Source of the DNA: Sinohyriopsis cumingii
Lineage: Eukaryota > Mollusca > Bivalvia > Unionida > Unionidae
Assembly: GCA_028554795.2 (NCBI GenBank)
Contig: CM068825.1
Location: 157,857,053-157,921,052 of the forward strand
Length of the DNA: 64,000 nt
Direction of reading: 5' to 3'
Below, in pieces: positions 10,619 to 61,946 of this stretch. The translations under genes and the position numbers were made by a program. The first letter of the stretch is position 1. Each line of letters begins with the position of its first letter. Under the pieces are notes generated by a model. The model was given only the letters and a program-made list of their open reading frames with translations, was not told the origin of the DNA and did no database searches.

Positions 10619-10619
10619 C

Positions 10620-43810: not shown

Positions 43811-43854
43811 AGTCAATCTCTTTTCGAGACCTATGAGTGGCTCTGAAAAGGGCC
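43811..43854 (-). terminator. Histone-type 3' stem-loop and purine-rich downstream element
   Basis: On the minus strand GGCCCTTTTCAGAGCC (43839-43854) forms the canonical 6-bp stem, 4-nt loop shape with one C-A mismatch, followed by ACTCA. About 10 nt later comes TCTCGAAAAGAGAT, a purine-rich block placed like a histone downstream element. It lies 45 bp after the stop of the minus-strand gene at 43899-44108. The block is closely related to the one at 44916-44954 in inverted orientation. Confidence 0.7.
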
Positions 43855-43898
43855 TCTGGGTTTATGTTAATATGCCCTTAACATAAAGGGCATCTGCT

Positions 43899-44108
43899 TC
43901 ATCTTCTTGTCCTCAAGCTGCGTCTTACTCGAGGGCCATAAATCAGTGTCCTCTTGAGGTAACCTTGTCTTTCCACGTACACTCTTCGTATCCACAGACT
44001 GGTGTCTGACTTGTGGACAACGGTCCACTTGGATCGGACATACATTAGCATGTCCGTCCTAAACATCATTGAAGAAACAAGGGTGGATGATTCGACTGTG
44101 GTCCACAT
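43899..44108 (-). CDS. Small basic protein, unknown (69 aa), with histone-like gene layout
   Basis: Minus-strand frame starting MWTTVESSTLVSSMMFRTDM and ending with the Arg-rich YGPRVRRSLRTRR (about 12 Arg in the last 35 residues). A TATA box (TATAAATA, minus strand, 44153-44160) sits about 45 bp before the ATG and a histone-type stem-loop follows the stop. It is divergent to the gene at 44330. I do not recognise the family. The basic tail suggests nucleic-acid binding or a nuclear role, which is inference. Its reality is supported by the flanking signals more than by the short frame itself; a 61-codon + frame overlaps but lacks such signals. Confidence 0.5.
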   Translation of the reverse strand: MWTTVESSTLVSSMMFRTDMLMYVRSKWTVVHKSDTSLWIRRVYVERQGYLKRTLIYGPRVRRSLRTRR

Positions 44109-44152
44109 CTTGAGGCGCCGAGAACAGGTGAATCAATGCAGTGAACTGCGCT

Positions 44153-44270
44153 TATTTATAGGCAGAGGAAGGATTGAAACGGATTGAGTTCATTGACCAA
44201 TCCAAACACGCGTTACAAAATTCAGTCAGTCCGCATCCAATCCGAAGAGAACATTCTGTGACGTCACGTG
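44153..44270. promoter_or_regulatory. Divergent promoter region with TATA, CRE-like and E-box motifs
   Basis: Between the divergent genes lie TATAAATA on the minus strand (44153-44160) and a palindromic TGACGTCA (44259-44266) overlapping CACGTG (44265-44270) about 60 bp before the + ATG at 44330. The consensus motifs suggest CREB/ATF- and bHLH-type control; binding is not shown. Confidence 0.5.
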
Positions 44271-44329
44271 GTCTATCTAGATTCGCTAGCGCCTGTGTGC
44301 AGTCAATCGATGCGAGACAGTGATACAAC

Positions 44330-44890
44330 ATGACGGAAACTCAGAAAACGGTCCATTGGGGTGCACCAGCAGTGGAGACCGCCCAAGGGAACCCGGACTT
44401 ACTTTCAGAAGAGGTAAATTGTGATTTTGTGGATTTTCTTACCTCGCAAGAATTTGTTCCGGAACCTTCGTCACCTTCATTACCGCAACTGGAGAATTTT
44501 AGACAGAGACAGAAAGAAGAATTGGAGAAATTTATACAACGACAAAAGGAAGCGGAACAAGCTTTTCTCATACAGCAACAGCAGCAAGAAGAAGAGGTAA
44601 GAAAAAAACAAGAAGAAGAAGTAGCAGCAAAGAAACAAGAGGGTGGAAATCAAACGGTCACGGTACTGTTGGACATTTTAGCGGAGTTAAGAAGTCTGAA
44701 ACAAATGTATCAGACTTCTTTATTACGACCGAAGAGAATACGACCTTCCCGAGCTAAACACGTCAACCCTGTCACTAAACCTACCGTACCACCCTTAGTG
44801 ATTTCAACCAAATCATCATCGACAGTACGCAGTCCAGAAGTAGGCCTTGGCCGTGGCAAAGGCTTAAGACAGTTAAAGTTGATTGCTTAA
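44330..44890 (+). CDS. Acidic coiled-coil accessory protein (186 aa), histone-type 3' end
   Basis: Starts MTETQKTVHWGAPAV. Residues about 55-105 form a Gln/Glu/Lys-rich coiled coil (FRQRQKEELEKF, QQQQQEEEVRKKQEEEVAA). Residues about 110-130 contain VTVLLDILAELRSLKQM, a possible amphipathic dimer helix. The C-terminus is basic (RPKRIRPSRAKH, GRGKGLRQLKL). I do not recognise the family. It sits at the left edge where early or regulatory genes of this virus-like group often lie, and it ends at a histone-type stem-loop 26 bp after the stop instead of a poly(A) signal. The frame is intact. Confidence 0.7.
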   Translation: MTETQKTVHWGAPAVETAQGNPDLLSEEVNCDFVDFLTSQEFVPEPSSPSLPQLENFRQRQKEELEKFIQRQKEAEQAFLIQQQQQEEEVRKKQEEEVAAKKQEGGNQTVTVLLDILAELRSLKQMYQTSLLRPKRIRPSRAKHVNPVTKPTVPPLVISTKSSSTVRSPEVGLGRGKGLRQLKLIA

Positions 44891-44915
44891 ACTCACCCCT
44901 ACACCAAAAACCAAA

Positions 44916-44954
44916 GGCCCTTTTCAGGGCCACCCAAGTGTCTCGAAAAGAGAT
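44916..44954 (+). terminator. Histone-type 3' stem-loop and downstream element
   Basis: GGCCCTTTTCAGGGCC (44916-44931) is a perfect 6-bp stem with a TTTC loop, flanked by CCAAA upstream and ACCCA downstream, matching the metazoan replication-dependent histone consensus. CTCGAAAAGAGAT follows 10 nt later at the position of the U7-binding histone downstream element. Confidence 0.85.
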
Positions 44955-45175
44955 ACACTTTCAATTGCCAATAACACAAAAAAAACCAAAACATTTTACC
45001 CCTATAGTACGTGTCTGTGTATGAGTGTGTGAGTGTACGTTCTTATTTTAAAATCATAACCCAAAGACACTTACCTTTTAATACTTAATTTATTCTTTCA
45101 TAAATATTAACAATCCAATTCAGAATTCACAACAGAGCACTTTAAAAAGTTCATACACTTCTTCTGTCTCATTGT

Positions 45176-45649
45176 TTAGTCTCTCTGTTTTTTCAATTTC
45201 TTCACCGTCACAGGCTTTTCCTCTTCTTCCTCCTCACTTTCTTCCCTTCTTCTTTTCTTCTCCTGTTTCTTTTTCTTTGCCTCTTGTAAATAGAATTGTC
45301 TTCTTTCTTCCTCTTCTTCCTCTGAAGAATCCCTCTCTTCTTCCTCTGAAGAATCCCTCTCTTCTTCTGACTCCTTTTGTTTCTTTTTGGGCAATCTGGA
45401 GACCAATGTCCTTTTTCTTGACAATAATAACAGGTATCTTGACTTTTGTCTTTTCTAGCCCCTTTTTTTTCTTTTTTGATGGTCTGGACACTCTGAAGAC
45501 CAATGCCCTTTCTTCTGACAGATATAGCAAGTATCTTGACTTTTATCACGAAAGGAAGGAGAGTAGTCCGTCTGCTGGTCTGAAGAGAATTTTCTAATGA
45601 CCCCTCGCAAACCTCTGATGAAACGTTCGATTTGGTTAGTCTCTTCCAT
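45176..45649 (-). pseudogene. Double zinc-knuckle (CCHC) protein with acidic tail, frame-broken
   Basis: The minus-strand start MEETNQIERFIRGLRGVIRK leads to a first zinc knuckle CYICQKKGHWSSEC in one frame, a second knuckle CYYCQEKGHWSPDC in a second frame and an acidic/basic tail (ERDSSEEEERDSSEEEEEE ... KKLKKQRD) in a third. The two CCHC boxes share a SQDTCY..GHWS..CP frame and are clearly duplicated. CCHC knuckles bind single-stranded nucleic acid. The second frame change is at an A-run (CCCAAAAAGAAAC on the minus strand, about 45395). A TATA box lies about 55 bp upstream. Divergent to PolB. Confidence 0.7.
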
Positions 45650-45700
45650 CGTTGTGCTCGGTTAGAGAGTGAAATGAATAGTGAAAGGACAAGACACACA

Positions 45701-45737
45701 CCCTTTTATATACGCTGGTCTCCCATGAATATAAATT
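45701..45737. promoter_or_regulatory. Bidirectional promoter of zinc-knuckle gene and PolB
   Basis: TATATAAAAGGG on the minus strand (45701-45712) points to the zinc-knuckle gene. TATAAATT on the plus strand (45730-45737) lies 47 bp before the PolB ATG at 45784. Confidence 0.6.
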
Positions 45738-45783
45738 ACCCCATGGTGTTTAAACTTTAGTCATTTGACGTTTTACACTCAAG

Positions 45784-48700
45784 ATGAAACGATCCTATTC
45801 ATTCGAGAAGAAAGAAGAAAGTAAGAGGCAGAAACGAGATCTATGGCCTCGTACCAGGGCTGAAGTCTTGGCACAAATTCATGCCAGTGATTTTGAAGAG
45901 GACATGAGTGAACCAGAATCCGAACCCTCTAAACAAAGTTCACCACCCTTAGTCAACCCTGAAAAGTTCTATTCCATTCGAGAGACGGAAAAGCGCTCCT
46001 CTAGAAAATTTAGAACCACGGCTTACAAATACACAGTAAAGTTTAAAGATTTCAAGTCCGAAGTACCGTTAGAGAAAGCAGAAGGGGTCATCACCGGGGT
46101 GTGGGATTCTTTGCTCACCACACTCAAGCGACAATGTCAACCCAAAGAAGACGATCGCTTGAGACTTTCCATACAACACGACGGTTTGAAATCCCCTGTT
46201 TGCATCGAGTTTAGCACCCCTGCAGAACTAACTGCTTCCAAAGTCATGGACAAGATTCAACACGTGCAACAATCCAATGATCAGTTTGACATCACCGATG
46301 GAAAAGCCACACTGGACATGACCCATGTCTCTCCTCCTCAAGGGACTGGCCGCAAAAAGGTGTTATTGGCGAACGACCTTCGCATCACCAAAACGAGCCT
46401 CGTCTGAATTCACAACCCTCAAGACCAGATGTGTTTAGCCCGTGCCATCGTGGTGGGACGAACCTATGCCAACAAGAACGACACGGTAGAATGGAAAAGA
46501 GCCTGGGAGAACATTCGAAAATCGAACCGAGCCAAACAACGAAATGAAGCAGAACTCCTGTTACAACAAGCCGGCCTGTCCAAAGACACACCCTGTGGCA
46601 TTCCTAAGATGCAAAAATTGCAAGATGCCCTAGCTCCACGATACGCCTTGAAAGTGTATCCTCAAGAAATGCGCGGGCCTCTGTTGTTTCGAGGGAAAGA
46701 CTTTAAGGATGGAAAATACATTCATGTCTATAATCACGATGACCATTTCGATACCATTACCAGTATCACCGGATTCCTGGGATATGTTTATTATTGTGAG
46801 ACATGTGACTATGGTTATAATAATCGAGAGCAACACAAACATTGTGAATGGAAATGCTCAGGATGTTTGGCCTCTCCACCCTGTCTGAGCGAAGGACCAG
46901 TGCATTGTTCAACTTGTCTGCGCACGTTTAAAAGATTGTGCCCTACGTGTGGACAAGGCATACGTACCAATAGTACCAAGGCACACGTATGTTCAGGAAA
47001 GAAAAAATGTCACATTTGTCACAACATCGTGGACTTGGAACACCAATGCTACGTGCAAAAATACCAACCCCTACCAGAGAAAGAGGATGGACACAAGAAG
47101 AAAGGCAATTTCATCTTTTTCGATTTCGAATGAATGCAAGAGACTGGCATTCACATTCCTAATTTCTGCGTGGCTCATCGAGCGTGCGAAAAGTGCATTC
47201 AAGAACCTATCTTCGGTCATTGCCCTCACTGCAGCAAGATTCCCGGAGGACGTGAAAAAATCTTTCGGGGACCGAACACGTTAGCCGATTTCGCCCGATG
47301 GGTCTTAGACCCCATCGACAAGACGTGGAGCCAAGAGGACATCGAACGTTACGGAGATTGTCATCGTCATGCCACGGTGATGGCTCACAATTTCTCCGGA
47401 TACGATGGACAGTTTCTTCTCAGATACTATACGGAACATGGCACCGAACGTCCTAAAGTGACTTTGAACGGAGCCAAAATCATTTTCATGCAAGTGGGAC
47501 AAGTACAGTTTAAGATTCGATGAGCTATTTGGCCATGACTTTGAGCCGAATGCATAAAACGTTTGGAATGACAGAAATGGCTAAAGGGTACATTCCTCAC
47601 TTTTTCAATACGGAAGCCAATCAACATGCCGTTCTACCTCATTTGCCTGAGGCTCATTATTACGACCCCGACAACATGCGTACCGAACAACGAGAAGCTT
47701 TCTACGCTTGGTACCAGGCTCACGCCTCGGACCCTTTCGACCTTCAGGAAGAAATGCTAAAGTATTGTCGTTCCGACGTGGACATTTTACGGCGTTGCTG
47801 TGGACAATTTCGAGAACTGTTCATGGAACACGGAGGGGTCGATCCTTTGAAGGAACCTTGCACTATTGCCAAAGCGTGTTCCTTAATGTACCGACAACGA
47901 TTCATGCCTGAAAACACCGTGGCTGTCATCAGTACTCAAACGACCAACTATGTCAAACGTCAATACTCGGTCAAAGCCCTACGTTGGTTACATTACTTGT
48001 GCGACAGGGAAGACAAATGGATTCAGCATGCCCGCAACGGAGGGGGCGAAAAGACCATCGGAACGCATTCGGTCGATGACTGGGACTTAAAAAACCCCAA
48101 GATCGTGTACGAGTTTAACGGCTGCTTATTTCACCGATGTCCCGTTTGTTACCCTGACCGTGGCACTAAAAATCAGTTTTTACAACGAACCATGGAAGAC
48201 CTGTACCAGGCCACTTGTCAGCGACGCCTAAAGTTAGAACAGGAAGGATACCAAGTGGTGGAAATGTGGGAGCACGAATACGATCACCGTTTGAAAACCG
48301 ATCCCGAGTTTAAACGCCTCGTGGAAAGTTACCAGTTCATGGACCCGCTGAACCCGAGGGATAGTTTGTACGGAGGAAGGACCAGTGCCACCTGTTTCCT
48401 GTACCAAGCCGACGAAGAGAAAGGAGAAGAAATCAAATACTTGGACGTGTGTTCGCTGTATCCCTACGTGTGCAAATATTGTTGCTTTCCTGTAGGGCAC
48501 CCGCAATTGTTCACGGAACACATCGATCTGAAAAACATTTGACAATACGAAGGCTTGATCAAGTGTAAAGTTTTGCCTCCCACGAACCTATACCATCCCA
48601 TCTTACCTCACCATTGTCAAGGCAAACTGATGTTTCCTTTGTGCCGTACTTGTGCCGAAACTTGCAACCAAGATCAGCCTTGTCAACACACCCAGGAAGA

Positions 48701-49772
48701 ACGTGCCTTGACGGGGACGTGGGTCAGCGTGGAATTGTTCAAAGCTCCGGACATGGGATACCAACTGTTAGAAGTGTACGAAATTTGCCACTTTCCCAAG
48801 ACACAACAATACCACAAGGGTGACCCCACGCAGAAAGGCATTTTCGCCGACTACGTGGATGCCTTTTTGAAACTGAAGCAAGAAGCCAGTGGCTATCCTT
48901 CCAGGTGTCACACTCCCGAAGACGAAAAGACATTCAAAAAGAAATACTATAAACAAGAAAGCATCTCTTTAGACCACATCGAGAAAAACGAAGGCAGGCG
49001 ATCGTTTGCCAAAGTGATGTTAAATTGCTTGTGGGGTAAAATGGCACAACGACCGTGTTTACCCAAGACGGAGTACTTGACCGAACCTTCCCGCTACTTC
49101 CAGATGATTCACGACAAAACCAAATACATGAAACACGTGGACGTCGTTCGCGAGGATTTGATCTTGGTCAATTACGAAGAAGATTTGGACTTTGTACAAG
49201 ACGACCCTTTTGGAAATGTCATCATTGCGGCTTACGTGACAGCTCATGCTCGCTTAAAATTGTACGAAGCTTTAGAACTGTTATGGGATCGTGTCCTGTA
49301 CTTTGACACGGACAGTTGCATTTACATCCATCACCCGAGTCAACAGCACCCTGACATCGAAGGAGACCGTTTAGGAGCCTGGACAGACGAGCATCCCGAC
49401 GACAAGATTTTAAGTTTCGTCAGTGGCGGTCCAAAAAATTACGGCTACGAATACCGGGACACACAAGGAGAAGTGCACACGACGTGCAAAGTGAAAGGAT
49501 TGACTCTGAATTATCGTACCAGTCGTGTGGTCAACTTTGGGGTATTGAAAGAAGCCTTGCAATCGGGAGAGGATGAACATATTAAAGTGACCACCTATCA
49601 ACCGAACAAGGTTGTACGTTTACCCACTCACCACATCGTCAGTCGACCCTTGGAAAAAGTCTATCAAATCGTGTACCAGAAGCGAGTGCCACTTCCCAAT
49701 CATTTCACCTTACCGTATGGACACCTTGGTATTGCTCTGTATATAAAAAGGAACCCTAGCCAAGATCGATAG
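45784..49772 (+). pseudogene. Protein-primed DNA polymerase B (Polinton/adintovirus type), interrupted
   Basis: About 1330 codons. The N-terminal region (45784-46400) has YTVKFKDF and RLRLSIQHDGL, seen in metazoan Polinton PolBs. A Cys-rich zinc region follows (about 46795-47065). Exonuclease motifs: IFFDFE (about 47113-47130), HNFSGYDGQF (about 47389), YCRSDVDIL (about 47764). Polymerase motifs: LDVCSLYPYV (about 48440), KVMLNCLWGK (about 49010), YFDTDSC (49299-49319). It would replicate the element genome by protein priming. Breaks: in-frame TGA at 46405-46407, 47131-47133 (directly after the first exonuclease motif) and 48540-48542, plus a frame change with TGA at 47521. All catalytic motifs are otherwise present, so inactivation is recent or partly assembly error. 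Confidence 0.92.
49740..49750 (+). promoter_or_regulatory. TATA box nested in the PolB 3' end
   Basis: TATATAAAAAG lies inside the last PolB codons, 55 bp before the ATG of the BIR gene. Confidence 0.6.
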
Positions 49773-49804
49773 TTCATTGTGACTACCAAGACCGAGGGAA
49801 CAAG

Positions 49805-50434
49805 ATGAATACTTTCATAGAAACACAGAACAAGTTTAGACAGGCACAATTCAAGTGTGGGGCTTCGGAAGTGGAATGCGATTGTGAGCCTTGCGAAGGG
49901 TACGATGCTGTACGTTGTGACCTTAGCGATGCCGTAAAGCATCATGGGAACTTTGTTCTCACTACCCCTATCATGGAAAGTGATGCTGTGCGTGTCAAAC
50001 CTGAGGGATGCGAAAGCGATGCCGCTCGTCCTCTTGGACATTTTACTGGGTTTCGTTTTAAAAGGGAATGTTCACCTTCACGTCTACCCCCCTACGGATG
50101 TCATCCAGCTCTGAGCAAACTCCTGCCCATGTCACCCAACCCTCATCGAAACGAACCTGTGAAAGACGAATATTCGTTTCCTGTCCGTTTGTCGGAATAC
50201 TGCGACTTTGAAAATCGTCTTGAATCGTTCAAAGGAAAATGGCCTAAGTATCTGGGAGGACCGACCCCCGAAGAATTAGCCAGAGCCGGATTGTTATACT
50301 TGGGCGAAGGAGATAAAGTCAAGTGCTTCAGTTGCGGTGTGTCACTTCACCACTGGGAACCACAAGATTCGGCCTACGTAGAACATGCTCGATGGTCACC
50401 GAATTGTCATTACTTACCCTTAGTTGGACCATGA
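49805..50434 (+). CDS. BIR-domain (IAP-like) protein
   Basis: 209 residues. The C-terminal part from about residue 130 is a single BIR domain: RLSEYCDFENRLESF, WPKYLGGPTPEELARAGLLY, then zinc ligands C174, C177, H194, C201 in CFSCGVSLHHWEPQDSAYVE and HARWSPNC, the exact C-x2-C-x16-H-x6-C spacing. BIR proteins inhibit apoptosis or act in cell division; viral IAPs usually block host caspase activation. There is no RING domain in this frame. The N-terminal half has repeated DAVR/DAAR motifs and an acidic-Cys patch of unknown role. It follows PolB with its own TATA box. Frame intact. Confidence 0.85.
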   Translation: MNTFIETQNKFRQAQFKCGASEVECDCEPCEGYDAVRCDLSDAVKHHGNFVLTTPIMESDAVRVKPEGCESDAARPLGHFTGFRFKRECSPSRLPPYGCHPALSKLLPMSPNPHRNEPVKDEYSFPVRLSEYCDFENRLESFKGKWPKYLGGPTPEELARAGLLYLGEGDKVKCFSCGVSLHHWEPQDSAYVEHARWSPNCHYLPLVGP

Positions 50435-50679
50435 CATTGAAGGAACTTCCCATGTCGTTGACGAAGAAGAAACCAGTTTGGCTAGGAGTCAAATGTTGGA
50501 CATCACCGAGACCAGTATTTAAACTTCATTTCAAAAACGATATTGAATCATTACCTAAAGAACTACAAGAGAAGATTTACAGGAAGTTTGGCATGGTTGC
50601 CAGAGTGAAATCTCAATGGGTCTCTGTAGAACTTTTGTGCCGAGAAATTCACAAGAGGAAAGTGAAAAAAGTCAACTAG
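50431..50679 (+). CDS. Small F-box-like protein (82 aa)
   Basis: The start overlaps the BIR stop (ATGA). The second half carries FKNDIESLPKELQEKIYRKF, an L-P-x-E-L-x-x-x-I pattern as in F-box motifs, and a basic end (HKRKVKKVN). The first about 28 codons look less like coding sequence than the alternative frame, so the true start may lie further in. It is paralogous in its motif to the next gene (50864). F-box proteins recruit targets to SCF ubiquitin ligases; the assignment rests on one motif. Confidence 0.45.
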   Translation: MTLKELPMSLTKKKPVWLGVKCWTSPRPVFKLHFKNDIESLPKELQEKIYRKFGMVARVKSQWVSVELLCREIHKRKVKKVN

Positions 50680-50791
50680 TGTGTTAGATTTCTTTGGGTC
50701 AAGTGTGCATTCGTCCTATTGTATTACTCTAGACCGTTTACATCAAAAGAGTTCAGTGACATTCTTGGACGTTACCCTGAACGGCAGTGGC

Positions 50792-50799
50792 ATATAAAT
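50792..50799 (+). promoter_or_regulatory. TATA-like element before the second F-box-like gene
   Basis: TATAAATT about 70 bp before the ATG at 50864, in an otherwise empty gap (50680-50863). Confidence 0.4.
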
Positions 50800-50863
50800 T
50801 ACTCACTATGTGGATTACGTTTGCTCTAGGAGAAGATTGTGAATTGTACGGACTGACCTATTC

Positions 50864-51169
50864 ATGAATACTTTACAAGAGAACATTCGTGCTTTGCCTG
50901 TGGAATTGAGAGAACGCATTTACTGAGAGCTGGTCAAAATACAAGTGAAACGTAAAGAACAATTGCATCCGTTACGTCACCAGATGTTTAACCACTGGTA
51001 CCTGAATGGTATAAGAGAACTGATTCGTCAGAAATTGTTTCAGTGGTCAGACCTTGTTCAATACTTCCAGGCCCCCGATGATCCACGTGTTGATCATTTT
51101 GGTTACTTCGAGATTCACCTAGTGCAACGCATTGAGGAAGACAAGGTAAAGGATTACCGACATATTTAA
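50864..51169 (+). pseudogene. F-box-like protein with an in-frame stop
   Basis: Starts MNTLQENIRALPVELRERIY, an F-box-like L-P-x-E-L-x-x-x-I motif matching that of the preceding gene, then an in-frame TGA at 50924-50926. The same frame continues for 81 codons with QMFNHWYLNGIRELIRQKL and a C-terminal HLVQRIEEDKVKDYRHI. Total about 101 residues if the stop is read through. The function would be recruitment of a substrate to a ubiquitin ligase, which is inference. I do not recognise the C-terminal part. Confidence 0.5.
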
Positions 51170-51230
51170 AGTGGAATCTACTTAGCGGAAGAGGAAACAT
51201 CTAAACAAACTCTGACGTTTAGGTTACAGT

Positions 51231-51677
51231 ATGCAACATTTAGATTCCCCACTGGAGAACGAAGATGTCTGGCTAGAAAGTACGTGTATTGTTTCCGAAA
51301 CAATGAGACTATAAAAACAGGCTGCCATGCCACGACTTTTATCGCATGTAATCCAACAGATTCCGTGGGTGGAAGTCAATGACCATATTCAAACCGTGGA
51401 TCATTACCATCGATTATTACAAGAACTGTATTCATTCAATTTGGGTCGACAAGTGGTGTGTGTCTTAGTGACTTGTTTTCTGGGATTTCGTTTACCAGCC
51501 GATTCCTTGTGGACTCTTTACGAACAGTATTTACCACCCATTCAACATGAAAGTGGTACCTTTCAATGTTCACGAGAGACTCCTTTTGCTCAAAGCCTTA
51601 CGTTTTCATCTGGATACTTCTCGACCTCTACGGGAAAAAAAGATTCGTCAACTTTTAGCTACCCAAGACGTGTATGA
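51231..51677 (+). pseudogene. Unknown helical protein, in-frame stop near start
   Basis: One frame runs from the ATG at 51231 (MQHLDSPLENEDVWLES) through an in-frame TAA (51312-51314) and on from the ATG at 51327 (MPRLLSHVIQQIPWVEVNDH) to 51677. It has a hydrophobic stretch QVVCVLVTCFLGFRLPADS. The TAA sits inside ACTATAAAAACAG, which could also be a TATA box, so the gene may really start at 51327 or later. The last about 40 codons are probably out of frame with the coding sequence that continues from 51547. Family not recognised. Confidence 0.4.
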
Positions 51678-52063: not shown

Positions 52064-52070
52064 AAACATT

Positions 52071-52076
52071 CAATAA
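52071..52076 (+). terminator. Poly(A) signal
   Basis: AATAAA 8 bp after the stop of the membrane-protein frame and 19 bp before the TATA box of the ATPase gene. Confidence 0.55.
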
Positions 52077-52094
52077 ACGTGTTCTGAAAAAAAG

Positions 52095-52102
52095 TATATA
52101 AA
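52095..52102 (+). promoter_or_regulatory. TATA box of the packaging ATPase
   Basis: TATATAAA, 47 bp before the ATG at 52149. Confidence 0.65.
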
Positions 52103-53892: not shown

Positions 53893-53896
53893 AAAA
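53888..53896 (+). promoter_or_regulatory. TATA box containing the core-protein stop codon
   Basis: TATAAAAAA with the TAA at 53890-53892; the next ATG is at 53951. Confidence 0.6.
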
Positions 53897-53950
53897 GGCC
53901 TGTGACCAAGTCGGGGTATCAGTGTTTTTGGTGGTCCTGAAGACTCAAAG

Positions 53951-54355
53951 ATGTCACCCTCCAGAAAACATCCCTCTTCTAAACAGCCCCAAGGAAAGAA
54001 AAGAAAAGGACTGCCTCCTCGTTTAGTCAAACATGGGGACATGTTATCTGTCCTGTCCAAAGCTTCTCCACCCCTACGAAAAAAACTCATTCAATCAGCC
54101 TACAAAGAGGTCATCGATACCGTGTGCGAATGTTGTTTGAACGTCTTGAAAGGTACGATCCCTTTGTCCAAACACCAGAAACAATGCTTAGGCAAACATC
54201 GTCACGTTCTTCGCCAAATGGTTCAAAAGAAAATTCCCATTCGTCAAAAGAAGAAGATGTTGGTCCAATGTGGAGGCATTTTACCCCTCTTGTTAGGTCC
54301 CTTACTGAAAGGAGTCTTGGGAACCATGTTGGGAGGACTGGTGGGAGCAAGATAA
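53951..54355 (+). CDS. Small basic protein with hydrophobic Gly-rich C-terminus (virion protein candidate)
   Basis: 134 residues, starting MSPSRKHPSSKQPQGKKRKG. The middle is helical with CECCLNVLKGTIPLS and QKQCLGKHRHVLRQM. The end, KKMLVQCGGILPLLLGPLLK then GVLGTMLGGLVGAR, is the K-x-x-L-V-Q-x-G-G-hydrophobic pattern that recurs in small virion-type proteins of Polintons and adintoviruses and recalls membrane-active minor proteins of adenovirus. Probable role: membrane disruption at entry or core binding (inference). TATA box 55 bp upstream; its stop lies within the next TATA-like box. Confidence 0.65.
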   Translation: MSPSRKHPSSKQPQGKKRKGLPPRLVKHGDMLSVLSKASPPLRKKLIQSAYKEVIDTVCECCLNVLKGTIPLSKHQKQCLGKHRHVLRQMVQKKIPIRQKKKMLVQCGGILPLLLGPLLKGVLGTMLGGLVGAR

Positions 54356-54360
54356 AAAGG
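54351..54360 (+). promoter_or_regulatory. TATA-like box containing the preceding stop codon
   Basis: GATAAAAAGG with TAA at 54353-54355; the next ATG is at 54405. Confidence 0.5.
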
Positions 54361-54404
54361 CCCTCGGAAGTCCCAAGATCTCAGAATCGACCCCTGACAA
54401 CCCC

Positions 54405-55112
54405 ATGGAAGGACGAAGACTGGCTTTAGTGCCTTACAAACGATGGATGGAATACCATCGTTGGCAAGAACAACGCACCCCGCATTTACCTCCCAATCCC
54501 CATTTGAGCGAGATGTCCCAGTTACAACACGAATTGCAGTCCTTGATGGATCGCCAAGATTTGTCCGTAACAGAAAAATCGCAAAAGTACGGTCAACTCT
54601 TGCAACGACTGCAACTCTTTCACCAGAAAGCTTTAGACGAAACAGCTCTACCCACTCTGAAATATTTTAAGACCTTAATGAAAAGTCCAGCACCATCATC
54701 ACTACCACCACCACCACCACCACTACTACCATCCCCAGGGGTTACCAGAGATGCTAACCCACGAAGACCTGAGGAAGAAGAGATGCGAGAAGTGTTTCAA
54801 ACACCGTCAGCAGCTCCCATTTGAAGTAAGATTGCAGCATCCTTGTTGACCCCGTCGCCCACACCCCAACGAGAATAAATGAAAGCTTGGGTTAAAAAGA
54901 TGATGTCCACTCCTCCTTCAACAGAAGTGAAAAAGAAAGAAGGGAAACCAGAAGTGAAAAAAGAAAAGAAGACCAAAGCCATTCCATTGCCACCTCCACC
55001 ACCACTACCTTCGACTTCTACTCCCGTAGCCCATCGGACACGTAAATCCGTTTCTAAACCACCCTTTCGTCCCACCCAAAGTAGCATCACCGAAGAGTGG
55101 GTGACTTATTAA
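54405..55112 (+). pseudogene. Conserved Polinton-type protein of unknown function, with two in-frame stops
   Basis: Starts MEGRRLALVPYKRWMEY; an L-V-P-Y start followed by a helical bundle is common to a protein of unknown role in this virus-transposon group. Residues 35-90 are helical (LSVTEKSQKYGQLLQRLQLF), then a poly-Pro stretch. An in-frame TGA (54822-54824) and TAA (54876-54878) interrupt it, after which the same frame stays open to 55112 (MKAWVKKMMSTPPSTEV ... FRPTQSSITEEWVTY) with a second poly-Pro run. The downstream part could also be a separate 77-codon gene starting at the ATG at 54879. Confidence 0.55.
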
Positions 55113-55131
55113 CACACAAACAAACACAAAA

Positions 55132-56240
55132 ATGGAAAAAGTCTTAGCCAGCATTTACTACGATCCCTCGCATCCTGCAGGTCACGCAGGAGTTCAAAAA
55201 TTGTATCGTGCTGCCAAAATGCGACTGAAAAGTCTCCGCTTACATCAAGTGCAACGATGGTTACAAGAACAAGCTACCTACACTTTACACAAACCCATTC
55301 GACGCAAGTTTGCCAGAAGTCGCACCCGAGTGGAAGGCATCGATCATCAATGGCAAGCCGATTTAGCCGATGTCTCTCATTTGGCCAGCTACAATCGCGG
55401 CTACAAATATTTGTTTTGTGTCATCGACGTCTTTTCCAAATGTGCCTGGGTTGTGCCCTTGACTTCCAAATCCAGCAGCGAGTTAGTGCGAGCCCTACAA
55501 AGGGTGTGAAACAAAGCGGTCGTCGCCCTCTTCGATGGCAAAGAGACAAAGGCACCGAATTTCTGAACCAAGCTTTCCAAAAAGAATTAAAGAAACGTGA
55601 CATTCATTTTTTTACCACCGAGAATCCCGAAACCAAAGCCAGCATCGTGGAACGTTTTCAACGCACTTTGAAAGAACGCACGTGGAAATATTTTACGCAT
55701 CACCACACTCTGAAGTACATCGACATCTTACCGCACCTGGTGCAAGCGTACAACCAATCTTACCATCGAAACATCAGACGTGCCCCGCAAGAAGTGACTC
55801 CCGACAACGAAGTGCTGGTGTTTGAGCGCCTGTCTGGTACGTCCCCGACGAGGGCTGTCCCCAAGAAAAGTGAAGTGTTGGCCGTAGAAGATTGGGTGCG
55901 CATTGGCAAAACCAAACGCACTTTAGACAAAGGTTACTTACCTAACTGGACGACCGAAATGTTTCGTGTCACTGGACGAGTGCATGGTCGTCATCCTGCC
56001 GTCTATAAATTGGAAGACATGAACGGAGAAGTGCTCAAAGGAACGTTTTATTTGCCCGAGTTACAACGTGTGACCCAAAAAGAAGACGACGTGTACGACA
56101 TCGAAAGCATTCTCGAACGCAGAACCCGTAAAGTGGGCAAACGACGTGTCAAAGAAGTCAAAGTACGTTGGAAAGGATATCCACCCAGTTTTGATTCTTG
56201 GATCGACGCTTCGCAATTCATCGACTATAAAAAGAAGTGA
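55132..56240 (+). pseudogene. Retroviral-like integrase with C-terminal chromodomain, one frame change
   Basis: The ATG at 55132 opens ASIYYDPSHPAGHAGVQKLY, the N-terminal motif of Polinton integrases. The catalytic core has WQADLADVSHLA (first Asp, 55360) and YLFCVIDVFSKCAWVVPL. A frame change near 55500 follows, then RDKGTEFLNQAF (second Asp, 55545) and KASIVERFQRTLKER (Glu, 55650), exactly 35 residues apart (DD35E). The C-terminus is a chromodomain: YDIESILERRTRK, VKVRWKGYPPSFDSWIDAS. It would integrate the element, with the chromodomain possibly steering it to modified histones. The stop at 55507 is produced by the frame change. The TATA of the next gene lies in its last codons. Confidence 0.9.
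56226..56234 (+). promoter_or_regulatory. TATA box nested in the integrase 3' end
   Basis: TATAAAAAG immediately before the integrase stop at 56238-56240, upstream of the membrane-protein and penton genes. Confidence 0.55.
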
Positions 56241-56656
56241 CCATCATCCCCTTTCACATAGACGCAGCTACGTCGACCACTCCTTCACCTAGTTCTTCTG
56301 TGCAAGATTTACAAAAACAACCTTTGTGGGTGTGGTGCGGAGAACGTGTGCCAAAAACGCAAATCGTCTTTTTCTGCCAAATCTTCGTGGTGTGTTGTGT
56401 CATCGGGGCAGCCATTGCCAATTTGAGTTTGCAGCAAGGAGACAAACAATTGTGGACTATGTTATTGAGCAGTTGCATCGGTTACCTGCTTCCCAATCCC
56501 TCCCTGAAATTCTCCTCGAACGGGAACCACGGAAACCTTGTTTCCAGTGCCAGTGCCAGTCACCACTCCAACAACAACCAGAACCCCATTTTGGGCGGAG
56601 ACACGCCTCTGACGTCCAGTAACCCCTCGGACAGCCACAGAACTCTGGAATTATGA
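56237..56656 (+). CDS. Small membrane protein of the capsid gene cluster (start uncertain)
   Basis: An open frame of 139 codons without an ATG before the membrane segment. The hydrophobic segment IVFFCQIFVVCCVIGAAIA is followed by NLSLQQGDKQLW and LLSSCIGYLLPNPSLKF, a pattern I associate with a short membrane protein found beside capsid genes in Polinton/adintovirus genomes. The C-terminal 50 residues are Ser/Asn-rich and disordered. The last codon overlaps the penton start (ATGA at 56653). The lack of an initiator ATG means the start is mutated, non-AUG or supplied by splicing. Role unknown. Confidence 0.55.
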   Translation: MTIIPFHIDAATSTTPSPSSSVQDLQKQPLWVWCGERVPKTQIVFFCQIFVVCCVIGAAIANLSLQQGDKQLWTMLLSSCIGYLLPNPSLKFSSNGNHGNLVSSASASHHSNNNQNPILGGDTPLTSSNPSDSHRTLEL

Positions 56657-57567
56657 GTCACCAAAACCAATTTTACTTAACCTTACACAGTGACAGTTCC
56701 ATGGTGGTGTTTCCCCACAACACGTTGTGCTGTTACACGGCCAAATTACCTCAGGCCATCCCATTAGATCACGAAGCCCATTGGGAACTGGCTTTAGTAG
56801 AAATGATTCACCCTACACAAATCCAAAACATCACTGAAAAGCAAAACACTTTTGAGGTCGAAATCCTGAACCAACAATTGCAAGAAACCATAAATGAAAT
56901 CGGGTTTTCAGGGGACATAAGAGCATCCAACAATTCACCCTTCAATATCTACACCTTGAAAATTCCGGCAGTGTTTGATTTTAGTGACCAACATTTGGTG
57001 GACACCATTGCTTCCAGGTTCGAGTTAGCCTTTGGCAAAGCCCTGAACAGAATCAAAAAAAGTGTCACCCTGGAGTACAATAAAGTTACTCGTCGCTTAC
57101 TGATGAAATTTCAGGACACCCAAACGTTGTCCATCAGTTTTAATCGTGACTTGTTTGATATTTTAGGTGGAGACACAAAAATGGCTCCAAATTTTAAACC
57201 GAAGATCAACAGCAATACGGAATTTTACAAGTTTTTTCGATTCCCTGTAGAACTGAACCAAGGACTGAATTTGATTTTTGTGTATTCCGATGTGGTGGAG
57301 TACAACGTGGTGGGACACACCTCTGTGCCGTTACTGCGTGTCATTCCTTTCAAAGTGGATAGTGCCACGACCAGTGACCAGGAAGGTGGGAACACTTATC
57401 ATGTCCACCGCGAATTTCTAAATCCACACTATTTGCCCGTCGGTAAGTCTTATTTGGACACGGTCAACATTGCTACAAAAGGAGATCTGGGACAAAATTC
57501 TCCATTCACCAAAGGAAAAGTCACGGTGAAACTCCATTTTCGAAAACGGTTCTCTCACGACTCGTAA
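56653..57567 (+). CDS. Penton-type (minor capsid, single jelly-roll) protein
   Basis: 304 intact codons. The N-terminus MSHQNQFYLTLHSDSSMVVF then PHNTLCCYTAKLPQAIPL and WELALVEMIHPTQIQN is the characteristic opening of the Polinton/adintovirus penton-type protein. The C-terminal part has YNVVGHTSVPLLRVIPFK and PHYLPVGKSYLDTVNI, ending KGKVTVKLHFRKR. It would form the capsid vertices with the hexon-type MCP. It overlaps the membrane protein by 4 bp and is followed 3 bp later by the next virion gene, consistent with a co-transcribed virion cluster. Confidence 0.85.
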   Translation: MSHQNQFYLTLHSDSSMVVFPHNTLCCYTAKLPQAIPLDHEAHWELALVEMIHPTQIQNITEKQNTFEVEILNQQLQETINEIGFSGDIRASNNSPFNIYTLKIPAVFDFSDQHLVDTIASRFELAFGKALNRIKKSVTLEYNKVTRRLLMKFQDTQTLSISFNRDLFDILGGDTKMAPNFKPKINSNTEFYKFFRFPVELNQGLNLIFVYSDVVEYNVVGHTSVPLLRVIPFKVDSATTSDQEGGNTYHVHREFLNPHYLPVGKSYLDTVNIATKGDLGQNSPFTKGKVTVKLHFRKRFSHDS

Positions 57568-57570
57568 GTC

Positions 57571-57996
57571 ATGTATCCAGTGTACCGAGGGGTTGCTCGA
57601 CAGCGAGGACACGGTTTAGGAGATATGTTAAAATCGGCCTTTCGTTCGGTGGCCCCGGTGTTGAAACCGATGGTGACACGCGGAATGCACGCTTTGAAAG
57701 ATGAGGCACTGACACAAGGCAAAGAATTTCTCCAAAATGTCATCATCGACAAACAAAACCCTAAAGAAGCCTTCATAAGGGCAGGCAAAAATGTCTTGCT
57801 GCAAACAGGTAAAGACCTTTTAGGCCGACGAGACACATCTATAAACGCCCTGCACGCTACCGAGTCAGGCATTCAGCAAGGACAAGGCAGAAAGAGACGA
57901 CGAAGAAAACACCCTTTCACCAGACTTCACACGTCTAAAGCTAGAAAGACAAAGAAAAGAAGAACCATTCAAGACTTAGACGTTTTCGATTATTGA
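57571..57996 (+). CDS. Gly-rich/basic minor virion protein
   Basis: 141 residues. The N-terminus MYPVYRGVARQRGHGLGDML then KSAFRSVAPVLKP resembles the R-G-x-G-x-G..F+ hydrophobic opening of a minor structural protein conserved in Polintons, possibly a counterpart of adenovirus pVI (cement or membrane-lytic). The middle contains FIRAGKNVLLQTGKDLLGR. The end is highly basic (GRKRRRRKH, ARKTKKRR) and closes with DVFDY. Frame intact. The pVI comparison is by position and composition, not alignment. Confidence 0.65.
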   Translation: MYPVYRGVARQRGHGLGDMLKSAFRSVAPVLKPMVTRGMHALKDEALTQGKEFLQNVIIDKQNPKEAFIRAGKNVLLQTGKDLLGRRDTSINALHATESGIQQGQGRKRRRRKHPFTRLHTSKARKTKKRRTIQDLDVFDY

Positions 57997-58064
57997 GAAA
58001 GAAAAAAAAAATGATGCACCGAGAGTCTTGCGCTTGTTCCAAGTAGGAACTGGATCTGTTTGCC

Positions 58065-59330
58065 ATGCCACCCACCATGATGACCATGCAAGAATCCCAG
58101 TGGGTGGAATTTCATCCCGTCTCCTCATTGACTGATTCCGCTCCCATCGAGTTTGAAATCAAAGGACACCCCGAAGATTACATCGATCTGAATAGCAGTT
58201 ACTTGTACCTGAAAGTCAAAGTTCTAGATAAGACAGGAGGTGATATAGACACTGAAGCAGTAGCTCCCGTCAAGAATTTCATGCATTCCTTGTTCAGTGG
58301 AGTGGACTTGTACTTGAATAACAAACTAGTCAGTAGCATCATGGATACTTACCCTTACCGTGCCTACCTGGAAAATCTCTTGACGTACGGAATAGACGCC
58401 AAGAACACTCATCTCAATGCCTGTGTGGTATGGGAAGCTGACGATGCAGGCCAGTTTGAATTATTGTAAACTGATACAACTAATAAAAAGAAAGAATACA
58501 ATGAGGGATTTGTAAAACGAAGAAACAAAATCAAAGATGGACAGAGTTTAGAACTGATGGATCGTTTGCATTTGGACATGTGGTTGCAAGAAAAGTATTT
58601 GCTGAACGGGGTGGATGTCCGCCTGAGACTGAATCGTAGCAGTAGCGCTTTCCATTTAATGGCTGGTGCTGACGATTACAAAACCAAAATCCAAGAAGCC
58701 AGACTCTACGTACGCCGTGTGGAAGTGTTACCTAAAGTGGGAAACGACATCAGTCAGACGTTAAGCAGAACGACCGCCAAGTATCCCATACGACGCGTGG
58801 AAGTGAAAACCTTCACCATTCCCAAGGGACAGCGATCCATGATCGAAGATCATCTGTTCCAAGGACAGTTACCCAAACGTTTGATCGTTGGTATCGTCGA
58901 GAATACAGCCTTCAACGGAGCTGCCGAAAAAAATCCTTTCTACTTTCAACACTTTGGCGTGTACAAGATCGAAGTCAGTTGCGATGGCAAGACCTTATGT
59001 ACCCGACCTTTCGAACCTGACTTTACCAAGAAGAATTACTTGAGATCGTACTTGTCCCTGTACGAAGCCACCGGACAGTTAGGAACCAACACCAGTCACG
59101 GGATTACGTACGAGGATTATGCAGGAGGCTATGCTTTGTGGGCTTTTGATTTCACTCCAGACCAAGGCAGCGACGAGGGACATTTCCACCCTATAAAATC
59201 CGGCCAGATTCGTGTGGAAATTCACTTTGCAAACCGAGTCCCTGATGAAACGGTGAACGTCATCCTGTATGCAGAATTCGATAATACGATAGAAATCAAC
59301 AGTTTGAGAGAAGTCATTCTAGATTACTAG
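58065..59330 (+). pseudogene. Major capsid protein (hexon-like, double jelly-roll), one in-frame stop
   Basis: 421 codons in one frame. Part one (58065-58466): ESQWVEFHPVSSLTDSAPIE, GHPEDYIDLNSSYLYLKV and NFMHSLFSGVDLYLNNKLVS, the start of the first jelly roll of Polinton/adintovirus MCPs. An in-frame TAA (58467-58469) follows FELL. Part two (58470-59330) continues without frame change: LHLDMWLQEKYLLNGVDVRL, HFGVYKIEVSCDG, YEDYAGGYALWAFDFTP, and the conserved end VNVILYAEFDNTIEINSLRE. It would form the icosahedral shell. Unless the stop is an error or read through, no full capsid protein is made. A free ATG at 58557 could yield only the C-terminal part. Confidence 0.92.
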
Positions 59331-59335
59331 AAGCC

Positions 59336-59818
59336 ATGGAAGACTGTTATCCCTCTTTACCTAGTGGAGAAACTTTAGACATGAAATGTGAGGAGACTGT
59401 GAAAGAAGAAGTTATCATGATGAAGTCAAGATGGCCAGAACAAGAAGTCCGTTTAGTCTCTTGTTTTGCCAAACACTTGGTCGAAAAAATGACGGAATTG
59501 ATCAAGAAAAATTGCTATGGATGTCAAAACGATCATCCCAGTCAAATTCAACACGATAAATGCCTGATGCTGAGTCAAGAAGAAAAATTGAACGAGTATC
59601 TGGACGAAGCTTGGAGTCTCATCTCGGACGAAGTCGTGTTGCATCAGTGGTATAAAGACTTGCGTGAACATTCTTGTCCACCATTAACCACTCAAGAGAT
59701 CCATCGTATCGAAGCTCTTCTGAATCAGAGTGAGGAAACGAAGCGAAGAAACGGTTATTTGTCAGACATTTTCAAGCAAAAAGTCAGGGTCGAATTGATG
59801 ACTTATTATTACCTGTGA
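59336..59818 (+). CDS. Conserved Cys/His-containing protein next to the protease, unknown function
   Basis: 160 intact residues. The central motif NCYGCQNDHPSQIQHDKCLM (C-x2-C ... H ... C, possible zinc site) is one I recognise from Polinton/adintovirus genomes, where it lies beside the capsid or protease genes; its role is not established. The rest is helical and Glu-rich, with an end YLSDIFKQKVRVELMTYYYL. It starts 5 bp after the MCP stop, so it is probably co-transcribed. Confidence 0.6.
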   Translation: MEDCYPSLPSGETLDMKCEETVKEEVIMMKSRWPEQEVRLVSCFAKHLVEKMTELIKKNCYGCQNDHPSQIQHDKCLMLSQEEKLNEYLDEAWSLISDEVVLHQWYKDLREHSCPPLTTQEIHRIEALLNQSEETKRRNGYLSDIFKQKVRVELMTYYYL

Positions 59819-59837
59819 AGAAGAAAAAAAACAAAAC

Positions 59838-60378
59838 ATGGATACCTGTATACTTTATTACCTTTTGAACCACAGTTCCTGTTGTCTGTGTTAAAGATGA
59901 ACTCCCTCATCGCAAACCTCAAGACCATCTAGCTGATGTGATCAACACGGACGACAGTCATCTCCCAAGAACCCACTGGGTAGCCGTCTACTTTCCTCAA
60001 GAAGGATGTGTGGAATATTTTGATTCGTACGGATTGCCCCCTTTGGAAGACGATATCGTTGACTTTATGAGAAGAAATGCTCAGACCACCCGATTCAATA
60101 ATGTGAAATTACAAGGCACAGATTCCTTGGTGTGCGGACAGTACTGTGTGTATTTTCTGCATCATCGCAGCCTGGGCTATTCCTTAGAACATTTAGTGAC
60201 TCATTTTGATCCTTGTTCTTCTTCTAGAAACGATGTGAAAGTAGATCGATGGTTTTGTGACCATTATGCTTATCTTTTGTCTCAAGCTAAGAAACGTAGT
60301 GTCCATCAATGGCCTAATGACTTCCAACAATGGAAATCACAATTTCATTCACAATGTTGTCAGCCCTGTTTAAAGTAG
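59838..60378 (+). pseudogene. Adenain/ULP1-like cysteine protease, frame change near the start
   Basis: The only plausible ATG is at 59838 (MDTCILYYLLNHS). The conserved body lies in another frame from 59869 on: VCVKDELPHRKPQDH, then RTHWVAVYFP (catalytic His, about 59972), VEYFDSYGLPP (Asp), and DSLVCGQYCVYFL (Gln plus catalytic Cys, about 60145). This His-Asp-Cys order and spacing is the adenovirus-type protease fold, which matures virion proteins. The C-terminus reads VDRWFCDHYAYLLSQAKK. One frame change between 59838 and 59869 disconnects the start; the catalytic part is intact. Confidence 0.85.
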
Positions 60379-60483
60379 AGTGTGAATTGAAAAAAATGTT
60401 TGAGATTTGAAAAAATGTTTGATGTTATATTGTTGGATTATTGTTAAAAATGTTAGAGTTGTTGGTTAGTGTTAAGTGATTTT

Positions 60484-60489
60484 GAATAA
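60484..60489 (+). terminator. Poly(A) signal after the protease gene
   Basis: TGAATAAAAAATG, 106 bp after the protease stop, at the end of the capsid-protease cluster; contrasts with the histone-type ends of the edge genes. Confidence 0.5.
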
Positions 60490-60617
60490 AAAATGTTGTG
60501 TTTTAAAAAAAAATGCCTTTGTCTTTTGTTTGGCTATAAGAATGTTGAGTCATGCTCTTTTACTTCTTACTATCCCTCTCATGACACTCATTGAACGTTG
60601 CGGCTCGAAAACCGTAG

Positions 60618-60646
60618 AGGGATGTTTTCCTTCACGTCCGCGCTTT
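60618..60646 (+). promoter_or_regulatory. Conserved upstream box, copy 1
   Basis: GGGATGTTTTCC then TTCACGTCCGCGCTTT, followed by CTTTAAGAACC. The same box occurs before the next two accessory genes. CACGTCCGCG is a GC-rich candidate factor site; the ATG is 64 bp downstream. Confidence 0.65.
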
Positions 60647-60709
60647 GACTTTAAGAACCGGGGTAGTTTCCAGTCAAACCATCCATTGTCGACTCATCCT
60701 CCTACGAAG

Positions 60710-60913
60710 ATGTGCTCCAAACTAGCTAAGCTAAACGAAGCCTACGTGAATTTGCATAGGGTCAGACACAGTCTGATACCAAAAGCTGAAGAGATAGAGA
60801 ATGTGAGAATGCTAAAAGTCACTGAAGACCTGATAGAAGAGCTCTTCAGAGAAGAAGTGAACAGGGAGAAAGAAGAATGGACAGAGAAGTACAGACTTCA
60901 GAGACAGCAGCAA

Positions 60914-60945
<32 letters not shown>

Positions 60946-61081
60946 GCAGCAGGAACCTGAACCTGACAGAGGCTTTGTCGATTGTCGTATCGACACCAAA
61001 AAGTTCTTCTTCTCTTTCCGAAGAAGCAGACCTATCGTCAGAAAGTCTATCCTCAGAGGACGTCGCATTCTTAGAAATTAA
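60710..61081 (+). CDS. Accessory coiled-coil/polyQ protein A
   Basis: From the ATG at 60710: MCSKLAKLNEAYVNLHRVRH, clearly related to the start of protein B (61546), then a Glu-rich helix (LFREEVNREKEEWTEKYRLQ), a run of about 16 Gln (60905-60953) encoded by mixed CAG/CAA, and a basic Arg/Ser tail (FFFSFRRSRPIVRKS, RGRRILRN). The open frame extends 78 codons upstream, but the paralogy and the conserved promoter box favour this start. Function unknown; ends at a histone-type stem-loop 27 bp after the stop. Confidence 0.65.
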
Positions 61082-61107
61082 AAGATTGCCATAGCAAACA
61101 AAAAGAC

Positions 61108-61146
61108 AGCCCTTTTCAGGGCTACCCCAAACTCTAGAAAAGAAAT
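61108..61146 (+). terminator. Histone-type 3' stem-loop and downstream element
   Basis: AGCCCTTTTCAGGGCT (61108-61123), a perfect 6-bp stem with TTTC loop, then ACCCCA. CTCTAGAAAAGAAAT follows at 61132-61146 as the purine-rich downstream element, and ATTTGCCAAT after it is shared with the other copies. Confidence 0.85.
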
Positions 61147-61487
61147 AACAATCCATTTGCCAATGTGTGTAGGTAGAGTAGTGTGAATATAAACACTAAC
61201 TCTTTTTATAGTGTGAGGGTATGTGTTTGTGTATTGGATTGTGTGTTTGTAAGTGCTCACGTACGTTGGTGTGGATAGTAGATTAAGATCATGTTTTTTT
61301 GCTGTTTGAAGTGTGGGGAGAGTAGATTTGGGGTTTGATTGCTTTGCGTATGTGGATAGTATATTGAAGTGATTAATGAAAATTTTTAAATTAGTAATGG
61401 GTAGTATAAAAAAGTGAGTGAGTGTTTCTTTTAGGTCCGCGCGTTGTTTGGTCATGATCTAGGTAATATCAATTTTATGTTTTAGGG
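61147..61487. other. Spacer of the tandem accessory unit
   Basis: No gene. Blocks such as GTGTGAATATAAACACTAAC and GTGCTCACGTACGTTGGTGT recur at about 61978-62060, showing that the spacer was duplicated together with the gene. Confidence 0.6.
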
Positions 61488-61514
61488 GGATGTTTTCCAT
61501 CACGTCCGCGCTTT
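61488..61514 (+). promoter_or_regulatory. Conserved upstream box, copy 2
   Basis: GGATGTTTTCC then ATCACGTCCGCGCTTT; preceded by TGGTCATGATCTAGGTAATA, which is repeated before copy 3. Confidence 0.7.
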
Positions 61515-61545
61515 CAGTAGCTACCCTTGTTGATTGATCAAGAGA

Positions 61546-61878
61546 ATGAACACCAGACTAGCAAAACTGCTTGAACTTTATGTACACCTGGAATATGCCA
61601 GGCGTATAGTGAATGAGCTGGCTGCAGAGGCCCTAGTAGAAGAGGGAAGGATGAAAGAGGAGGAGAGCAGAAACAAAGAAGAGGAGGAGAGAAGAAACAA
61701 AGAGGAGGAGGAGAGAAGAAACAAAGAAGAGGAGAGAGGAAATTTCAGAATCCCAGAGACAGAAAATTGGGATTCTGAAGCCACTTATCCCGCCTCTGCT
61801 CTTCCCCCAAAACGAGTGAAAAGAGACTGGGGAAGAAGATGTGTGTGTGGTGCCAGGCCTGGAAGGTGCCATCATTAA
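61546..61878 (+). CDS. Accessory coiled-coil protein B
   Basis: 110 residues. The start MNTRLAKLLELYVHLEYARR parallels protein A (L-A-K-L-x-E-x-Y-V-x-L). A 24-bp coding repeat gives EERRNKEE units (61680-61735). The C-terminus has a basic, Cys-containing end (KRVKRDWGRRCVCGARPGRC). It ends 29 bp before a histone-type stem-loop. Protein A and B look like diverged duplicates that each expanded a different simple repeat in the middle (Gln in A, Glu/Arg in B). Function unknown. Confidence 0.65.
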   Translation: MNTRLAKLLELYVHLEYARRIVNELAAEALVEEGRMKEEESRNKEEEERRNKEEEERRNKEEERGNFRIPETENWDSEATYPASALPPKRVKRDWGRRCVCGARPGRCHH

Positions 61879-61907
61879 CCAGGTGTCATGGAGTTTTAAA
61901 AAAAAAC

Positions 61908-61946
61908 AGCCCTTTTCAGGGCTACCCAATACTCTAGAAAAGAAAC
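61908..61946 (+). terminator. Histone-type 3' stem-loop and downstream element
   Basis: AGCCCTTTTCAGGGCT (61908-61923), then ACCCA, and CTCTAGAAAAGAAAC at about 61932-61946, nearly identical to the copy at 61108-61146. Confidence 0.85.

Follow-up and report, generated by a model that had tools for sequence, protein, structure and literature searches.

Do the genes at the edges of a virus-like element in an animal genome end their messages in the manner of histone genes? The question is raised by a stretch of 64,000 nucleotides from the bivalve Sinohyriopsis cumingii (GCA_028554795.2, contig CM068825.1, forward-strand positions 157,857,053 to 157,921,052), hereafter the window, in which the predicted genes between about 43.8 and 62.4 kb mark an integrated virus-like element of the adintovirus/Polinton kind. 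A preliminary description of the sequence had proposed histone-type hairpins behind four genes of this element, which we call D and E at the left edge and A and B at the right. Our analysis suggests that these edge genes carry genuine replication-dependent histone-type 3′ ends. The ends would be processed by SLBP and the U7 small nuclear ribonucleoprotein (snRNP) to give tail-less mRNAs mainly in S phase, and the module would be host-derived and spread by duplication. We put the probability of this reading at roughly three in four.

The hairpins and the purine-rich blocks downstream of them are placed as follows (window coordinates):

43839 to 43854, minus strand: stem-loop after gene D, GGCCCTTTTCAGAGCC, found by the consensus scan and by Rfam (26.1 bits), with one C-A mismatch
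43819 to 43825, minus strand: GAAAAGA of gene D, within TCTCGAAAAGAGA
44916 to 44931, plus strand: stem-loop after gene E, GGCCCTTTTCAGGGCC, Rfam 36.4 bits, CCAAA before and ACCCA after
44945 to 44951, plus strand: GAAAAGA of gene E, which with the next base contains AAAGAG
61108 to 61123, plus strand: stem-loop after gene A, AGCCCTTTTCAGGGCT, consensus scan and Rfam (23.0 bits)
61137 to 61143, plus strand: GAAAAGA of gene A
61908 to 61923, plus strand: stem-loop after gene B, AGCCCTTTTCAGGGCT, consensus scan and Rfam (32.2 bits)
61937 to 61943, plus strand: GAAAAGA of gene B

The consensus scan and Rfam thus recover the same four places, at the coordinates and on the strands first proposed. 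Every hairpin lies on the sense strand of its gene (one minus, three plus) and follows the stop codon by 44 nt in D, 25 in E, 26 in A and 29 in B, in agreement with the 25–45 bp given earlier. A stem of six base pairs closed by a four-nucleotide loop of the UUUC type is intact in three of the four copies, E, A and B, which fold at −11.4, −9 and −9 kcal/mol with z values of −2.3 to −2.7; the 6-bp stem claimed for all copies does not hold for the minus-strand one. The outer stem pair is G-C in the left copies (D, E) and A-U in the right-edge copies (A, B), both sides having changed. ACCCA-like bases do follow the stem, as ACTCA (D), ACCCA (E), ACCCC (A) and ACCCA (B), with ACYC common to all four. 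The GAAAAGA block is likewise present in every copy, separated from the stem by exactly 13 intervening nucleotides each time.

When the consensus GGCYCTTTTCAGRGCYACCC was searched with up to three mismatches, four matches were found in the 64 kb; 100 dinucleotide shuffles averaged 0.01, and none gave as many as four. The Rfam family Histone3 (RF00032) also matches all four hairpin places. The copies of A and B are part of a tandem duplication, and those of D and E form an inverted repeat (63 nt, 84%). Since the hairpin copies are related by duplication, the chance figures cannot be multiplied over them, and they amount to fewer than four independent observations.

The genes that these hairpins follow are short, and the right edge holds a further, truncated module:

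43899 to 44108, minus strand: edge gene D, a basic open reading frame (ORF) of 69 residues; a TATA-like box lies near 44153 on the same strand
44330 to 44890, plus strand: edge gene E, 186 residues, with an acidic/aromatic N-terminus, a predicted coiled coil and a basic C-terminus
60710 to 61081, plus strand: edge gene A, 123 residues, start set from homologues
61546 to 61878, plus strand: edge gene B, an ORF of 110 residues
62248 to 62415, plus strand: third right-edge module, made up of the upstream repeat and an ORF of which only the first 27 codons remain before a TA microsatellite interrupts it, the 3′ end lying outside the window

At E ≤ 1 we found 19 homologues of gene E (57–89% identity by local alignment) and nine of gene A (66–81%), and these two therefore look like real, conserved genes. 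The coding status of gene D, known from its ORF alone, is uncertain. Gene B may be a distant paralogue of A, to which it is 29% identical in the alignment, and its upstream repeat at 61487–61527 is common to the other right-edge modules.

One homologue of gene E, P0130 (67% identical), extends beyond the usual C-terminus; when back-translated, the final 21 residues fall on the hairpin, ACCC, the purine block and TTGCC, matching at most 53 of 63 bases. This figure is an upper bound, the comparison using the closest synonymous codon, and shuffled tails were handled alike: none of 2000 reached 53, the maximum being 43. Across the window the tail fits best at the hairpin of gene E (53), followed by those of A (46) and D (45), suggesting that the module is retained in this homologue. 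No second read-through of the same type was found among 148 proteins in 14-residue windows, where P0130 scored 38 of 42 and the next protein 33. Taken together, the Rfam matches, the rigid 13-nt spacing, the strand, the position after stop codons and the retention in a homologue 67% identical support well the proposal of histone-type 3′ ends.

In animals, SLBP sits on the hairpin, the downstream element is the pairing target of the U7 snRNP, and CPSF73 cuts the pre-mRNA between the two (PMC7026596). Because histone biology works so, we infer cleavage, use of SLBP and U7, absence of a tail and S-phase timing for the edge genes as well. Host SLBP would bind the hairpin of the edge-gene transcripts and the U7 snRNP would recognize the GAAAAGA element; cleavage past the ACCCA-like bases would then yield mRNAs with no poly(A) tail, and these would accumulate and be translated mainly in S phase. 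The module would probably have been taken from a host histone gene, duplication then distributing it over the short edge genes, and the remaining transcription units of the element would keep ordinary poly(A) signals. More broadly, we think it somewhat better than an even bet that a lineage of animal DNA viruses captured the histone 3′-end signal for its edge genes, yielding non-polyadenylated, S-phase-restricted viral mRNAs through which host replication could be sensed or exploited.

The purine core of the mouse histone downstream element is AAAGAG (PMC7026596). This hexamer, the one reference used for comparison here, is present in the D and E elements. The candidate stretches for pairing with the 5′ end of the U7 small nuclear RNA (snRNA) are TCTCGAAAAGAGA and TCTAGAAAAGAAA. 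Past the purine block, TTGCC is invariant in all four copies (43801–43863 on the minus strand, 44907–44969, 61100–61165 and 61900–61965) and is also implied by the back-translated P0130 tail. To our knowledge TTGCC is not a requirement of histone 3′ ends, and the invariant bases may reflect a longer pairing with U7 or some other role.

Several observations weigh against histone-type processing. The gene D stem (GGCCCT/AGAGCC, with the C-A mismatch) folds weakly, at −4.5 kcal/mol with a z of −0.12. The gathering score of RF00032, 34, is passed by one copy in four (E, 36.4), those of B (32.2), D (26.1) and A (23.0) lying below it. The A and B elements read AAAGAA instead of AAAGAG. An isoleucine codon in P0130 forces an A at the sixth position of the stem, which leaves five pairs, and the hairpin after B is outside the six best plus-strand sites listed for its tail; P0130 may itself be a decaying copy. 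Absence of the hairpin from orthologous gene ends in relatives had been raised in advance as a sign against the proposal, and the one gene E homologue to which this could be applied, P0130, keeps the module; in P0147, which is homologous to gene A but diverges at its C-terminus, the module is not seen. Six distant Polinton contigs (L102–L107; capsid identity 27–47%, several of them short), found in bacterial metagenome-assembled genome (MAG) records of GTDB, gave neither an RF00032 match nor a loose hairpin in a scan that demanded six pairs, which copy D would have escaped too. These contigs neither support nor refute a hairpin at orthologous gene ends, because no homologue of E, A or B was found in them (tblastn with 31 edge-gene proteins, best E 0.21).

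The state of the element and the distribution of its poly(A) signals count on the same side. The window copy is decayed, as its polymerase, capsid and integrase genes are each split over several ORFs and its right end is lost, and its present activity is doubtful. An ATTAAA overlaps the gene A stop, ahead of the hairpin, and an AATAAA follows hairpin B at 399 nt. The element is rich in poly(A) hexamers, with 14 on the plus strand and 12 on the minus strand between 43 and 63 kb. In favour of the proposal, the first AATAAA or ATTAAA past the hairpins is 399–4650 nt away, whereas three other gene ends, at 52072, 54874 and 60485, have AATAAA within 300 nt, and another lies at 45094 in a minus-strand unit. 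This unit comprises overlapping ORFs at 45176–45705 with zinc-knuckle-like (CCHC) motifs and converges on gene E. In a tally of 19 gene ends, which leaves out the zinc-knuckle gene, the hairpin is found at four, a poly(A) hexamer no more than 300 nt away at three, and neither signal at 12. The contrast in poly(A) signals between the gene classes is therefore weak and suggestive only, given how common the hexamers are and how many gene ends (12 of 19) have neither signal.

The decay of the window copy would also suit a passive capture, in which the element copied the 3′ flank of a host histone gene and multiplied it together with the edge modules, the flank contributing nothing to expression. 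The duplicated flanks that A/B and D/E share beyond the hairpin are in keeping with such a history, as are the imperfect stems of gene D and, by implication, P0130. However, hairpin, ACYC, 13-nt spacing and purine block are fixed in all four copies while the coding neighbours diverge (A and B are 29% identical), the left-to-right exchange of G-C for A-U preserves the pair, and the module is still present in a homologue 67% identical in protein. We consider passive capture improbable.

A second alternative accepts the hairpin as an RNA signal and places its role in stability or translation rather than 3′ processing: it would bind SLBP or merely protect the RNA, and the transcripts would be polyadenylated downstream. 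Cleavage is here predicted from sequence, and the AATAAA past hairpin B is available for such an end. Histone genes of Caenorhabditis elegans pair the hairpin with a nearby poly(A) signal, yet their mRNAs end 3–6 nt past the hairpin (PMC1924863). Past the other hairpins, however, the first AATAAA or ATTAAA is remote, 847 nt from D, 4650 nt from E and 1199 nt from A (B, 399 nt), and a purine-rich, U7-like target is conserved at a fixed distance. Downstream polyadenylation thus seems unlikely to be the explanation.

How readily such hairpins arise by chance can be judged from a collection of viral contigs. The bare hairpin GGCYCTTTTCAGRGCC occurs in 101 stretches of this collection, with ACC following it in none of the 101, and RGYYCTTTTCAGRRCYACCC, matched by three of the four window copies, has no match there. 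The looser pattern GGYYCTTTTCAGRRCCAC has three matches, in contigs that appear phage-like by eye, and GAAAAGA stands at 13 nt in none of them. Two near-identical phage-like contigs (L108 and L109) carry AC and a GAAAAG run 8 nt past the stem, which shows that a collection of this size does yield such coincidences. When the same collection was queried with the capsid, gene E, gene A, a minor-capsid-like protein and the ATPase, no confirmed locus was obtained. A DNA-level element (a palindrome serving replication or recombination) or a hairpin arisen by chance, to which the hairpins' position near both element ends and these phage-like coincidences might point, is very improbable, since the orientation tracks genes and not ends, the conserved features are those of RNA processing (loop TTTC, ACCCA, purine block) and the chance expectation in the window is 0.01.

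A histone-like nature of the edge proteins was considered, but Pfam gave no support for it in E, A or B, and no histone match was found among the ORFs submitted to Pfam (27 from the window and 20 members of the gene E alignment, gene D being outside this set). A host histone gene in the window is likewise not supported, as RF00032 at up to E 1 matches only the four hairpins. The Rb-binding motif LXCXE, sought as a link to S phase, is absent from E, A, B and the third-module fragment, gene D being outside the scan. The structural model of gene E places a coiled coil between the acidic N-terminus and the basic C-terminus with low confidence (mean predicted local distance difference test score (pLDDT) 65, predicted template modelling score (pTM) 0.23), and that of gene A is mostly helical (mean pLDDT 76, pTM 0.33). 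Between the divergent genes D and E there are CCAAT-type sequences at 44197 and 44237 in addition to the TATA-like box, an arrangement that we take to resemble the layout of divergent histone gene pairs. A tandem repeat of about 44 bp at the left edge (43492–43744) adjoins the 3′ end of gene D.

The remaining genes define the kind of element:

47520 to 49772, plus strand: family B DNA polymerase in two ORF pieces with a broken frame, both above the Pfam cut-off (PF03175)
49805 to 50434: gene with a BIR (inhibitor-of-apoptosis) domain, within the element, Pfam E 4.5e-22
55132 to 56240, plus strand: integrase pieces with a chromodomain, PF00665 below the cut-off in two overlapping pieces and PF00385 above it
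58065 to 59330, plus strand: major capsid protein in two ORF pieces, recognized from the ORFs and the relatives of the second piece

The broken genes were queried piece by piece. A scan of the window ORFs with Pfam also detected a packaging ATPase of the A32 type in the element. For the second capsid piece we found 205 relatives at E ≤ 0.001 among 433 candidates; of the best 120 of these 205, seven are named as oyster sequences (47–54% identical) and one as sea cucumber (47%), with two more labelled bacterial. The five nearest among the matches listed (P0001–P0005) are 81–85% identical. Terminal inverted repeats were not found in the window, where the right end of the element stops in the TA microsatellite at about 62415.

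The traits of adintoviruses include an rve integrase with a C-terminal chromodomain, an OTU-like domain at the N-terminus of the polymerase and a hexon recognizable by BLASTp against reference adintoviruses (PMC11071296). In the pieces upstream of the polymerase, where the reading frame is broken, Pfam gave no match to the OTU-like domain, and for this reason we label the element only adintovirus-like.

The bacterial MAG records that hold Polinton capsid contigs probably reflect host contamination; three of the six described above (L102–L107) bear labels of Escarpia or Bathymodiolus symbionts. In one Bathymodiolus-associated contig (L103, 11731–11795) there is a weak twister-P1-like match past the capsid gene, at 28.9 bits against a gathering score of 67.2.

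Elsewhere in the window, positions 7676–12922 hold possible fragments of a second mobile element, with an rve-like integrase piece (E 0.0051) and, on the opposite strand, an AAA_30 piece (E 0.0093), both below the cut-off. A stop-to-stop ORF at 33863–36925 encodes 1020 residues of repeated, Ser/Thr-rich, mucin-like sequence with no Pfam match at E ≤ 0.01. To the right of the element, in host DNA, a tRNA match at 62998–63070 (29.4 bits, threshold 29) is probably the head of a short interspersed nuclear element (SINE).

Compared with the replication-dependent histone 3′ ends of metazoans (RF00032), the ends of the edge genes share the 6-bp stem and UUUC loop (in three of the four copies), CCAAA before and ACCCA after the stem (the match being best for copy E), the purine block after 13 nt and the setting behind short uninterrupted genes. 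They differ in that the genes are virus-like and not recognizable as histones, and in that two copies have an A-U outer pair and one a mismatch. With adintoviruses and Polintons (Mavericks) the element has in common the family B polymerase, the rve integrase with its chromodomain, the A32-type ATPase, the BIR protein and a capsid related to oyster F54H12.2-like proteins; it differs in the histone-type 3′ ends of its edge genes, none of which were found in the stretches of the six distant Polinton contigs.

Another histone link in the broad group of animal DNA viruses is provided by the ‘Histoid’ genes of adomaviruses (PMC11071296). There it is the protein that is remotely histone-like, whereas here it is the mRNA 3′ end and the proteins are not. 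A ‘Histone3’ element is also named in SARS-CoV-2, batZXC21 and MERS-CoV (PMC7786107). In SARS-CoV-2, a cytoplasmic RNA virus, it scores 14.7 bits, far below 34, and lies inside the nsp3 coding region; it looks like a chance match. Among the matches listed from the open-access literature, we found none that reported histone-type 3′ ends for a Polinton, an adintovirus or any other DNA virus. The 3′ end is thus of a known type and the virus group is known, and their combination appears to be new.

If true, this would represent a new viral strategy, in which genes are expressed in step with S phase from mRNAs lacking a poly(A) tail. Edge genes of this Polinton kind would be predicted to be on in replicating cells, with the other genes of the element polyadenylated, and RNA sequencing after poly(A) selection would miss the edge-gene transcripts and could have hidden them. 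Such a strategy would also offer a natural test of what the SLBP/U7 pathway requires. The edge genes would then form a set of non-histone genes on the histone pathway, and would give the virus a means to sense or exploit the replication of host DNA.

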